A stretch of 20,618 bases of DNA, taken from the IMG/VR virus record IMGVR_UViG_3300032883_000153, positions 1-20,618 of that record. The stretch is one strand, 5' to 3'. The position numbers and the translations under genes were made by a program. How positions within the stretch are numbered: position 1 is the first letter of the stretch; every line of letters begins with the position of its first letter. This DNA comes from a virus. Below the pieces are notes generated by a model. It was given only the letters and a program-made list of their open reading frames with translations. It was not told the origin of the DNA and did not search any database. Shown here one piece after another: positions 16,949 to 20,483 of the stretch.

Positions 16949-17143
16949 CTACTGCCCTAACAGGGTCTTTTGCCCTGTGTTCGTGGGGTTCCCGGAACCG
17001 AGCAAAGTACCACCGAAGCCGCCAGCAGCCGCTGCCATTGACCTCTGGCGGGTTCCCGCCGCCCCAGTTTGGTTTGACCCAAACATTGGAGGGTTGGGCG
17101 GGGGCGGTGGTGCTTGTGGTGCCGGAGGCATCTGCGGGCTCAT
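16949..17143 (-). CDS. Small P/G/A-rich phage protein between terminase and portal
   Basis: A 64-residue protein: MSPQMPPAPQAPPPPPNPPM, then a Gly/Ala/Ser-rich part, then GFGGTLLGSG and KKTLLG-like TGQKTLLGQ. A Pro-rich N-terminus with paired GGTLL and KTLLG motifs is a recurring feature of a small gene between terminase and portal in these podoviruses, by memory. Both ends fit the operon: an ATGA overlap with the terminase stop (17140-17143), and one base to the portal ATG. It is almost certainly disordered. A longer frame in another phase (16881-17189) overlaps it and is rejected. The function is unknown; a portal- or terminase-associated peptide is a reasonable guess. Confidence 0.75.
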   Translation of the reverse strand: MSPQMPPAPQAPPPPPNPPMFGSNQTGAAGTRQRSMAAAAGGFGGTLLGSGNPTNTGQKTLLGQ

Positions 17144-18699
17144 GCGGCCAAGTGCTCCTGATCGAACGGATTATATTCATGCTGGACAAGGGGCGTTTTG
17201 TCGGCCCCTTCGCGCCCCGCCATAGCGGAGGGCTGGACGAGGAAAGAGAAGGTCAATGCCAAGGCGTCTGCAATGTCTGGTGATGCTAAGCCCCGCTTTT
17301 TCATGTCCTCCTTCCTCTCCAGTTGTATCTCGTTACGGACATTAAAACCGTACTCGACGCCGATTAGCTGGTCGCGGACTTCTGGCTCTGCGGGGATCGC
17401 CCCGCCTTTGAGCCACTCGCGCATTGACCCCCAAATCTCAGCGCGTTTATTTGCATAAGTAGTCCCTGCATCGCCCTGAACGTAGCCAGTTCCGTCCGCC
17501 TTTGAACCAAACTGAATGTCCCAGACAGGCACTTGGAGCTGCCGCAGCCTGTCCACAACGCCTCCTCCGACGCCCCCGCCATCAACGAAGATCGCATCCG
17601 CGCGGTACTGTGTTGCAATTTCACTGACCTTTCCTGCTAGAGTCATTGTATCGAGGCCCCGGAAACGAAGTGGAGCATGCGATCTCCCATCGCGACCTTT
17701 TCTAATGTAGATAACGGACTCGTCGTCACCGAAGCGAGCCACATCGACTCCGAGGACGAGGGGGTCATGAAGATGTACAAGTACGTCCCGTTTCGCAGCC
17801 TCGTCAACGAGTTCTCCGGAGATGAATTGCATCGAACCCGCACGCGGGAAAGTGCCTCGAACGCGGACTCGGACAAAGTCACTGTCATCTCCATAGTCCC
17901 TAATCCACTTCTTGAACTGATCCTTGTTCGTTATAGATACATCGCGAGAGTCGACTTGCTCATGCCACCAAGTGTTCGCGTACCGTCCGAAGCACTCCCG
18001 AAAGCGCCCGGTGTTCCTTGTCGGATTGCCGAACACGCACCAAATGATTTGAGTGTCGCTGTCTGTCATGGCACCTTCAGCCGTTTCCCAGATAACGTCC
18101 GGGATCGCCGAGGCTTCGTCCATGATGAGTATGACTCGCCGGTTCTTGTTGTGTAGGCCCGCGAAGGCCTCCGTGTTTCGCTCCGACCAGGGCACCATAT
18201 CAATGCGCCACGTTCGCTCGTTGTCACTATCAGAACTGAAGATAGCGGTGGCGGTGAGCTTAAAGTAGTCCCGCCCGATGAAAAGGCGGTGCCACTTGCC
18301 GAGTTCGGCCCAGGTCTTTGTCTTGAGCTGTGTCTCAGTATTCGCTGTGACGACCCCGCGAGTATGCTCGAACGTCGAGAGAGCCCACAGGATAATCCAG
18401 GAAACGAGAGCTGACTTTCCAACTCCGTGACCGGAAGCAACAGCAATTTGGATGGCCTCTTGAACGGCGACACTGACGTCAGTTCCATTTGCGAGGCGCT
18501 CCTTAATGTGCAAGAGCACGCGCTGTTGCCAGGCTTCCGGCCCTTTGAAATGCTCCAGTTCCGTTTCGGGCTCGCCCCAAGGGAAGGCGAACAGGACGAA
18601 GTGATAAGGGTCGTTTGTGAAGGCGGCAAGTTCAGTCAGGATAGAACTGGGAGGCATCATCCCCATAACAGCAGTCTGTTGCTGTTGAAGGCCTATCAT
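17140..18699 (-). CDS. terL: Terminase large subunit (packaging ATPase-nuclease)
   Basis: A 519-residue DNA-packaging motor. The ATPase domain has Walker A GHGVGKSA at 90-97 and Walker B VILIMDE at 189-195, with the catalytic Glu last, followed by a coupling-motif-like FGNPTRNTG (223-231). The RNase H-like nuclease domain has its acidic residues in LGVDVARFGDD (D319), IFVDGGGVGGG (D373) and SPDIADAL (D475, D478). All catalytic elements are present. It cuts concatemers and pumps DNA through the portal. The ATG at 18699 forms an ATGA overlap with the small subunit, just past a GC-rich hairpin. A GC-rich GGCGG serves as ribosome site. The packaging type (headful or fixed ends) cannot be read from the window. 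Confidence 0.95.
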   Translation of the reverse strand: MIGLQQQQTAVMGMMPPSSILTELAAFTNDPYHFVLFAFPWGEPETELEHFKGPEAWQQRVLLHIKERLANGTDVSVAVQEAIQIAVASGHGVGKSALVSWIILWALSTFEHTRGVVTANTETQLKTKTWAELGKWHRLFIGRDYFKLTATAIFSSDSDNERTWRIDMVPWSERNTEAFAGLHNKNRRVILIMDEASAIPDVIWETAEGAMTDSDTQIIWCVFGNPTRNTGRFRECFGRYANTWWHEQVDSRDVSITNKDQFKKWIRDYGDDSDFVRVRVRGTFPRAGSMQFISGELVDEAAKRDVLVHLHDPLVLGVDVARFGDDESVIYIRKGRDGRSHAPLRFRGLDTMTLAGKVSEIATQYRADAIFVDGGGVGGGVVDRLRQLQVPVWDIQFGSKADGTGYVQGDAGTTYANKRAEIWGSMREWLKGGAIPAEPEVRDQLIGVEYGFNVRNEIQLERKEDMKKRGLASPDIADALALTFSFLVQPSAMAGREGADKTPLVQHEYNPFDQEHLAA

Positions 18700-19346
18700 G
18701 TTCCGCCCCCGACCGGGGGAGCCTGGTCAATGGTCTCCCCCGGCTTATCGGTGGGTAATGGAGCCGGGAGGCTGCCCTGCACCACCGCGCTCAACCGCTC
18801 AACCCGCTGTCGTCCAGCAGCGACTTGATCGGCGGTGAGATCAACATTCATATGCAAAGAAGAGTTCTTGGAAACTGCGACGAGGCCGGTGCGGTCCCCC
18901 ATCTTAAGACCGATCTCCATGACAAGATCGGTGCTGACCAGCTCCGGAGCATCGAGGAGACGATCGTGAAGGATTTCAAGGGCCTCGTCGCGGATCGCTA
19001 CCGCTTTCGCGTAACCAGTGCGATCTACGTCATCTTGAATGTCTTTGAGGTTTCCTCGGTAGAACTCCGCGAGTTCCATGAAGGATGGGTCGGATTTCAG
19101 GATACTGATGCGAGATTGGGAGTATCCGGTGATTTGCGAGATCTCTTGGCCGGTAAGGCCCCTCGCAATGTAACGCGCTATAAGGTGATGGGAGTCCCGC
19201 ATCCGCTTAACTGCCGGAGTTTTGATCCCCCTTTCCGACTCTAAAAGAACCAGGTCCGCGGAAGTCAGAGGTCGGACGATCTCTACTTGGACTGCCTTCG
19301 AGGCCCGCCCGTAGGTTCGGGTAAGGTCTATCGCACAATCGGACAT
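18696..19346 (-). CDS. terS: Terminase small subunit
   Basis: A 216-residue protein from ATG 19346. A GTG 81 bases upstream would add 27 residues (GYACNRRLAGLWW), which look non-conserved; GGCGGAG precedes the chosen ATG, at short spacing. Residues about 52-88 form a helix-turn-helix (HLIARYIARGLTGQEISQIT, then GYSQSRISILKSDPSF), the DNA-recognition domain of terminase small subunits. Residues 95-165 are helical and probably mediate oligomerisation. The C-terminus is Pro/Gly-rich and disordered, as usual for the part contacting the large subunit. It is the first gene of the minus-strand operon and is coupled to terL by ATGA. Confidence 0.8.
   Translation of the reverse strand: MSDCAIDLTRTYGRASKAVQVEIVRPLTSADLVLLESERGIKTPAVKRMRDSHHLIARYIARGLTGQEISQITGYSQSRISILKSDPSFMELAEFYRGNLKDIQDDVDRTGYAKAVAIRDEALEILHDRLLDAPELVSTDLVMEIGLKMGDRTGLVAVSKNSSLHMNVDLTADQVAAGRQRVERLSAVVQGSLPAPLPTDKPGETIDQAPPVGGGT
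18706..18719 (-). promoter_or_regulatory. Hairpin over the terL ribosome-binding region
   Basis: On the minus strand CCCCC and GGGGG pair around GGTC, immediately before the terL start. The G-rich arm runs into GGGGGCGGAACATG and includes the only ribosome-site-like bases for terL. The stem lies in the last codons of terS, so ribosomes finishing terS would open it. This predicts translational coupling of the large to the small subunit. The role is inferred; the sequence is directly visible. Confidence 0.4.
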
Positions 19347-19670
19347 TGGCTCCGCCCGGTTCAGCCACCATAAACCCGCCAGCCGCCGATTGCAAGCGTA
19401 ACCCGGACCATATGCTCTTAAAACCACCGACGACCCAGATGGGACCCTGCGCCAAGGGCCCGTAGGCCCGGAGCCATATGTGACTGAAAGTTTGCAAAAT
19501 TTGCGCAGGAGGTCTGGGGCGCGACCGGCACCCCCAGTTTTGGCCCCCCGGCGGCCCTAACAAATTTTCGGACGGTCGGCCTCGCAAACGCCAATCACTC
19601 GCAATGCGAACCACTGGCATCAATCGCCGGGCCAATGTCATCGCGCCAGTTATCACGTTGTCGTTACTGA

Positions 19671-19905
19671 GTATGGTCGTGCCGGGCACCGGACGATATG
19701 GCGAAACCCCCACCATTCCCCCACCGTTCTCACATTCGGATCAATCAACCATACCGGGGCCTCGTTACGTCATCTCAGTTTTTTTTTTTTTTTTTTTTGA
19801 AAAGAAACAACGGAGGGGATGGTATGGCACGCACCATCAAATGTGTGAATGGTGGGGCGATGGTGGGATCATGCCCATACTTCCCGGCGGGCGGTCGGAC
19901 CATAC
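19671..19905. repeat. Long imperfect inverted repeat centred on a poly-T tract
   Basis: Matching blocks lie at mirror positions about the same centre, near 19788. GTATGGTC (19671-19678) mirrors GACCATAC (19898-19905); TATGG (19697-19701) mirrors CCATA (19875-19879). A 28-base arm (19709-19736, beginning CCCACCAT and ending CACATT) mirrors 19840-19867 with 24 matches; CCATACC (19749-19755) mirrors GGTATGG (19821-19827). Between blocks the match is weak, but spacing is kept to the base. The arms differ at several positions, so this is not a simple copy artefact. It could fold as a long bulged hairpin or act as symmetric binding sites for a regulator or replication protein. The function is unknown. 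Confidence 0.75.
19779..19798 (+). repeat. 20-base poly-T tract
   Basis: Twenty consecutive T residues on the plus strand, followed by GAAAAGAAA. It is the longest homopolymer in the window and sits at the centre of the inverted repeat. It is not preceded by a stable GC hairpin ending right before the Ts, so it does not look like an ordinary intrinsic terminator for plus-strand transcription. The exact length may be unreliable because homopolymers are error-prone in sequencing. Confidence 0.8.
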
Positions 19906-20018
19906 GCGGTACGGCACGCGCCGAGTCCCGTCGCATTATTTACACGGAATTTACTTTACATCGGACTCGTTCGGGCGCACGGTATTCACGCGGGCCAATA
20001 CCGGCCCGAACAACATGA
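19824..20018 (+). CDS. Possible 64-residue protein (uncertain)
   Basis: A short frame from ATG 19824 with a strong ribosome site GGAGGGG five bases upstream; it ends 12 bases before the next plus-strand gene. The product begins MARTIKCVNGGAMVGSCPYF and becomes Arg/Thr/Ser-rich and basic. Against it, the frame lies across the right arm of the inverted repeat, so codon content is dictated partly by the palindrome, and the C-terminal half looks random. Two other frames are also open across the region. The strong ribosome site and the tight spacing are the only positive evidence. It may be a leader peptide. Confidence 0.3.
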   Translation: MARTIKCVNGGAMVGSCPYFPAGGRTIRGTARAESRRIIYTEFTLHRTRSGARYSRGPIPARTT

Positions 20019-20030
20019 TGGAGTCGGAAT

Positions 20031-20483
20031 ATGAAAGTCAATATCGGAAAGGGTATCGAACTTGATGTTGATACCGGGAAACTCAATGCGGCGGTTATGG
20101 CCCATGTGGTCTACATCGGGCTGCGTAACGTGCTCATGGACTCCCATGCGGGCGTTACCGAAGCGGTGGCGGGCGATCAGGTCATGGCCCAGTCATTGGC
20201 CGTTGCCGAACGCAAACTGGCCACGCTGTATGCGGGCGAAATCCGAACGGCGCGGTCTGGTGAACGCGATCCGGTTCGGGCCGAGGCGATAAGGCTCGCC
20301 ACAATGGCCATTCATGCCGCGATCAAAAAGTCCGGCAAGAAGGTCGCGGATTACGATGCCAAGGCGGTTCGCGAAAAGGCTGTCGCGAATATCGAGAAGT
20401 TCATGGATAAGGCCAAGCAGAATGTGGCTGATGCCAAGGCCCTCGATGTTGATGTTGGCGATCTCGCCATCGCGGCGGAATAG
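20031..20483 (+). CDS. Conserved-looking phage protein of unknown function
   Basis: A 150-residue, mostly helical protein: MKVNIGKGIELDVDTGKLNA, then VYIGLRNVLMDSHAGVTEAV, LAVAERKLATLYAGEIRTAR and DPVRAEAIRLATMAIHAAIK. The C-terminal 40 residues are Lys/Ala/Asp-rich and helical. I remember similar proteins with VYIGLRNxLMDSHA and AExKLAxLYAGE in early regions of phages from several hosts, with no known function. A GGAG ribosome site lies about eight bases before the ATG. It is transcribed away from the virion operon and so probably opens the early or replication arm. There is no signal peptide, membrane segment or recognisable catalytic motif. Confidence 0.7.
   Translation: MKVNIGKGIELDVDTGKLNAAVMAHVVYIGLRNVLMDSHAGVTEAVAGDQVMAQSLAVAERKLATLYAGEIRTARSGERDPVRAEAIRLATMAIHAAIKKSGKKVADYDAKAVREKAVANIEKFMDKAKQNVADAKALDVDVGDLAIAAE

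Follow-up and report, generated by a model that had tools for sequence, protein, structure and literature searches.

A mirrored, helically phased DNA element around an A-tract upstream of small terminase genes, a candidate genome-terminus site of podophages

We analysed a stretch of viral DNA 20,618 nucleotides (nt) long (IMG/VR record IMGVR_UViG_3300032883_000153, positions 1 to 20,618), referred to as a whole as the window. Our subject is a long, imperfect inverted repeat that lies between two divergent genes, one for a putative small terminase (TerS; 18696-19346, minus strand) and one for a protein of 150 amino acids (150 aa; 20031-20483, plus strand). The window also encodes a head-tail connector (PF12236), a GP7 capsid protein (PF20911), and a large terminase (TerL), a gene content that identifies its source as a probable epsilon15-like podophage. 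The features at the locus are as follows.

17140-18699, minus strand: TerL gene (phrog_2 match, 7.9e-45)
18696-19346, minus strand: gene for a helix-turn-helix (HTH) protein of the putative TerS family, the candidate binding partner of the element (alignment, weak HTH matches, and position before TerL; the homologue in Caulobacter phage Kuura was named TerS by its authors)
19659-19916, no strand: whole mirrored element, two arms plus a central T/A tract (gapped inverted-repeat search)
19659-19777, no strand: TerS-side arm, with short CCACC-type repeats (gapped arm alignment)
19779-19798, plus strand: T20 tract, which is A20 on the TerS/TerL-sense strand; the longest homopolymer
19798-19916, no strand: early-side arm, mirroring 19659-19777 (gapped arm alignment)
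20031-20483, plus strand: 150-aa gene, often close to the element

A sequence-only reading of the window had described an inverted repeat at 19671-19905, symmetric about a point near 19788 in the T20 tract. This symmetry was readily reproduced. The palindrome axis is at 19788.0, where 62 of 118 pairs are complementary (ungapped, ±118 nt), and the T20 tract adds none of them. The window-wide mean is 29.7 ± 5.0, the runner-up centre in the 20.6 kb reaches 50, and neighbouring centres reach at most 43. Gapped alignment of the arms gives a score of 57, whereas shuffles average 19.5 ± 3.3 and do not exceed 33 in 200. The top gapped inverted repeat of the window is 19659-19916, which extends slightly beyond the limits noted before (score of 58; the next best scores 34). 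Its blocks include one with 24 of 28 positions matched (AATGTGTGAATGGTGGGGCGATGGTGGG versus AATGTGAGAACGGTGGGGGAATGGTGGG) and one with 8 of 8 (GTATGGTC and GACCATAC).

We collected 86 loci through TerL and the neighbouring 150-aa gene. Dozens of related phages carry the mirrored element, with arm letters that differ between phages. The shared layout is a run of ~8 to 24 A on the TerS-sense strand, upstream of TerS and in the middle of a long imperfect inverted repeat (~70 to 150 bp per arm); the orientation of T20 in the window is common to nearly all relatives. Every homopolymer of at least 12 lies in the same place, upstream of TerS, and reads as A on the strand that codes for TerL. When 27 loci were chosen solely by such a homopolymer, blind to palindromes, the flanks were more complementary than all 200 shuffles in 24 of them (19 of 22 nonredundant loci), and L010, L069, and L084 failed. 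A second, independent set found through TerS gave z values of 5.6 to 24 in 14 of 17 testable loci; this set includes contigs without a match to the window's TerL within the flanks examined. In whole genomes (~43 to 52 kb), the homopolymer is usually the sole run of at least 9, and most of these genomes have their strongest palindrome centred there. This does not hold for G004 and G013, whose arms are weak, for G009, which has strong arms but no A-run, or for G017, which has neither. The centre is TG- or TA-rich in place of the A-run in L030 and L039. The suggestion that the symmetry is due neither to chance nor to an assembly palindrome was borne out. The retained blocks also behave as selected sites, as had been proposed, and related phages, to which the sequence-only reading had looked for a test, retain the symmetry rather than lacking it. 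We are almost certain that the element is real and conserved.

The element was not seen in the stretches scanned of epsilon15, AF, PfDIW6, Vibrio 1.185.O, PA14 phage Flu, or vir555, and it was not found in PaP2, Tiera, or EBPR3. A T8 palindrome in Vibrio VS-ABTNL-3 was not counted, being ~6 kb from TerS and probably a terminator. TerL relatives in bacterial genome contigs (L130 to L209, many of them Reyranella) are almost never accompanied by this TerS or by the element; among 80 genome-contig loci checked for prophages, only L179 has both. Therefore, the element-bearing group may be mostly nonintegrating.

The arms are strongly periodic, with a repeat of ~10.5 bp (autocorrelation z of 8.2 at lag 10 and 10.3 at lag 11). 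The periodicity of C has a z of 13.5 at ~10.25 bp in the arms and of about -1 in flanking control stretches of the same loci. The repeated cores vary by phage (CCTGAT, CTCAT, CCTAGT, CCACCAT, CCCACAT, and also a CCTNAT type). The arms match each other only in mirror register (mean local score of 61, compared with 26 off register and, at most loci, 17 to 20 for shuffles), and the matching positions are themselves helically periodic (autocorrelation negative at lags 5 and 6 and positive at lags 9 to 11). These features fit a DNA site that would be bound on one face of the helix, not a hairpin RNA. A rigid phase between the arms across the A-tract was looked for and not found (Rayleigh p of 0.28). 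The lengths of the A-tract cluster at 10 to 13 and 19 to 24 nt, about one helical turn apart (L009, L016, L042, L086, and others).

The sequence-only reading had also offered a structured RNA, a long hairpin with a U or A loop. The predicted RNA fold of the window repeat is indeed stable (-115.7 kcal/mol, z of -6.3), though this is expected of any such inverted repeat. However, mismatches that G-U pairing could accommodate are equally common on the two strands (100 and 101), and therefore there is no sign of RNA pairing. The helical periodicity of arm identity and the lack of an Rfam match also speak against an RNA, and we regard this explanation as very improbable.

Another explanation is a hairpin or cruciform of the two arms, with the A or T tract as its loop, that primes or directs duplication of a terminal repeat, so that base pairing itself is selected. 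A hairpin end has been reported on T7 concatemers (reference in PMC4925675; PMC4281155), and the match of the arms in mirror register also counts in its favour. Also, when alignment columns were compared between phages, 192 grouped by phage, 31 by arm, and 32 crosswise, showing that the two arms of one phage change together. The by-phage count is biased upward because the arms were delimited by within-phage similarity, but it is informative that the by-arm and crosswise counts are almost equal. Against a selected hairpin, the arms are only ~74% complementary, and this, together with identity along one helical face, is more in keeping with contacts made by a protein than with pairing. The same concerted evolution could result from template-switch correction of inverted repeats, and the arm mismatches are clustered (combined z of -6.2). 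We consider selection for the hairpin itself unlikely. Concerted evolution of the arms is unusual in its own right and calls for a mechanism.

In loci that have both, the element is ~0.3 to 2.7 kb upstream of TerS, which places it where a packaging site is looked for, within or beside the TerS gene. The block of late genes extends away from the element on one strand, and the early block is mostly on the other. Because the element separates divergent gene blocks in the window and in several relatives, it might be a transcriptional control region, either an operator array or a divergent promoter for early and late genes, and the sequence-only reading had linked it to such a region. However, the preceding annotated open reading frames (ORFs) are codirectional in L037, L070, L074, and L024, and in L016, L021, L069, and L081 the element is separated from TerS by the 150-aa gene. 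A divergent promoter is therefore too simple a description of the element. The distance to TerS, up to ~2.7 kb, also makes transcriptional control a poor candidate, which we rate as quite improbable.

The strongest single pointer to function came from Caulobacter phage Kuura, a cultured relative with mapped ends, to which a close relative's polymerase had led. Kuura shares polA, a Sak4-like ATPase, a RecB-like nuclease, and TerS (4e-23 to the TerS profile), and its TerL could not be aligned to that of the window. Its only homopolymer of at least 8 is an A12 at 43141-43152. Four GGGCAGT repeats with ~10-bp spacing are found at 43037-43067, an inverted ACTGCCC is across the A-tract at 43242, and the arms score 33, compared with 20 ± 3.4 for shuffles. 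The ends of Kuura were determined by PhageTerm on sequencing reads as 606-bp direct terminal repeats (PMC9959647). In the record, the terminal repeat starts at 43208, which is 56 bp past the A-tract and within the TerS-side arm. Thus, a virion end lies inside the element, an observation made in Kuura only. By analogy with Kuura, the left virion end of the window phage may be near 19723. A search with a fragment of Kuura TerS gave no matches. Kuura has the fixed direct terminal repeat, and most full-length relatives assemble as circles, which is compatible with terminal-repeat genomes without proving them. Two kinds of apparent ends were not accepted: the contigs G001 and G012 start exactly at the A-tract, which assembly breaks at homopolymers explain equally well, and 127-nt end repeats resemble an assembly k-mer. 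The metagenome contigs L002, L081, L217, and L254 start exactly at the A-tract, probably as assembly breaks.

We lean, with some reserve, toward the element being a site of DNA packaging or genome-terminus processing, located where the direct terminal repeat starts on its left, in a large group of podophages. This possibility was absent from the sequence-only reading and is favoured by the mapped virion end of Kuura. We prefer it because of the conserved architecture, that virion end, the periodicity, the circular assemblies, and the precedents of SPP1 and HK97. The sites in each arm of ~100 bp are phased with the helix to a single face of the DNA, an arrangement that would let the arm bend around or wrap a DNA-binding protein of ring shape, for which TerS is the likeliest candidate. 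The A-tract separates the two inverted arrays and, as the sole asymmetric part, could give the complex its polarity. Concatemers would then be cut or nicked within the TerS-side arm to create the left virion end, presumably at the equivalent place in the window phage, and the adjacent repeat might be duplicated in the manner of T7-type processing. The hairpin-assisted route to duplication that has been proposed for T7 would be compatible with this.

Several observations weigh against a packaging or terminus function. Kuura is the sole element-bearing phage with mapped ends, and its arms are weak (2 of 1000 shuffles were as good). A terminus close to TerS is expected anyway, so its proximity to the element might by itself be coincidental, with odds of roughly 1 in 10. 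L006 has this TerS and no visible element. Conversely, element-like structures occur in three phages reached via the polymerase: ctMlz233 (arms of 78, A9), in which the TerS profile found no match; Microcystis phage Mel-JY34 (arms of 49, tract of 9); and a Desulfofustis phage (arms of 42, A17 in reversed orientation). Finally, TerS and the replication genes (polA and the RecB-like nuclease) occur together in 22 of 24 contigs. Therefore, packaging and replication cannot be separated by co-occurrence. The element is linked to TerS, but the linkage is phylogenetically confounded. We rejected it as proof of packaging, because it reflects about two changes on the TerL tree and the replication module cosegregates.

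These observations bear on the principal rival, a replication origin, which the sequence-only reading had also raised. The arms would then be inverted iteron arrays for an initiator, and the A-tract or the TG/TA-rich centre would be a DNA-unwinding element. Iteron arrays that flank an A/T-rich centre look like known origins, and RepA_N iterons converge on poly-A tracts (PMC7145576). The element also cosegregates with polA and the RecB-like nuclease gene, and ctMlz233 and Mel-JY34 have the same polymerase type. However, no clean switch in GC skew, which had been suggested as a sign to look for, was found at the element, and no initiator gene was recognised by eye among the ORFs of the replication regions of G001, G007, and G011. 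The almost fixed polarity of the A-tract relative to TerS would be unexpected for a bidirectional origin, and the virion end of Kuura inside the element also speaks against one. An origin is the part of the sequence-only interpretation that survives as a rival, though we think it rather unlikely; its symmetry and selected sites stood, and its structured RNA and divergent-promoter site found no support.

A packaging or terminus site of this kind would resemble several known systems in part. In SPP1, the repeats of pac are located at the promoter of TerS, and bent DNA of ~100 bp has been proposed to wrap around the ring that TerS forms (PMC4737164). The element is like the pac sites of SPP1 and SF6 in lying just upstream of TerS with repeated short sites and arms of such a length. 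Unlike the ends made by these headful systems, Kuura has a fixed terminal repeat. In HK97, TerS requires a 9-bp A-tract at cos, and the tract confers polarity (PMC11331095). The A-tract of the element is reminiscent of this, but the cos sites of HK97 and lambdoid phages have no inverted arrays, a single TerS site, and cohesive ends rather than the 606-bp direct repeat of Kuura. A T7-type junction shares the direct terminal repeat, with the left end in the element in Kuura, and T7 processing reportedly involves a hairpin end. However, we noticed no T7-like RNA polymerase among the relatives that we examined, and the T7 literature consulted does not describe mirrored arrays with helical phasing. 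Iteron origins, including those of RepA_N, share the repeated sites, the inverted repeats, and the A-tract centre, and differ by the points given above. The sequence-only reading knew of no described element with this layout. Likewise, our search of open-access literature, whose silence is weak evidence, did not turn up any account of a phage terminus with mirrored and helically phased arrays on the two sides of an A-tract.

A second conserved sequence lies between the element and TerS and was found by a strict pattern search.

19500-19547, minus strand: GGGGCC-AAA...CGCAAA box

The strict pattern was found in 14 of 45 TerS loci and in none of the shuffled genomes, and no genome has more than one copy. 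In Kuura, the terminal repeat has its right end in a similar G-run region. The element and the box may bracket the terminal repeat, with the box as its possible right edge. This would explain how genes can come to lie between the element and TerS. Tentatively, the element might represent a new class of genome-end site, with mirrored phased arrays around an A-tract and arms that evolve in concert at one edge of the terminal repeat, the G-rich box at the other, and the duplication built into one symmetric nucleoprotein or hairpin structure. The box is also present in L006, L029, and L030, where the mirrored element is missing or degenerate.

There is dispute over how small terminases recognise the genome to which they belong, and no settled account of how T7-type packaging duplicates terminal repeats. 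The element supplies dozens of natural variants with a clear geometry of arm length, phasing, and A-tract polarity, and Kuura, being cultured, makes tests of binding and end formation possible. If the element is a packaging site, then genome ends would be predictable in many metagenomic phages.

Some minor observations concern the neighbourhood of the element and similar structures elsewhere. The product of the 150-aa gene had no PHROG or Pfam match. Its family keeps near the element, on either side of it, and the gene would fall inside the predicted terminal repeat in L016, L021, L069, and L081. An ORF with a good-looking start at 19824-20018 would make the right arm coding; we rejected it for want of a convincing homologue at the same place in relatives. 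A contig from a Methylococcaceae metagenome-assembled genome (L187, 7336-7500) has inverted TTCTACC repeats with an A9 nearby, upstream of a TerL relative that lacks the TerS family, and this is perhaps an analogous site. A Magnetococcales contig (L178, 3490-3750) has an inverted repeat of ~120 bp with a score of 165, also upstream of a TerL relative.
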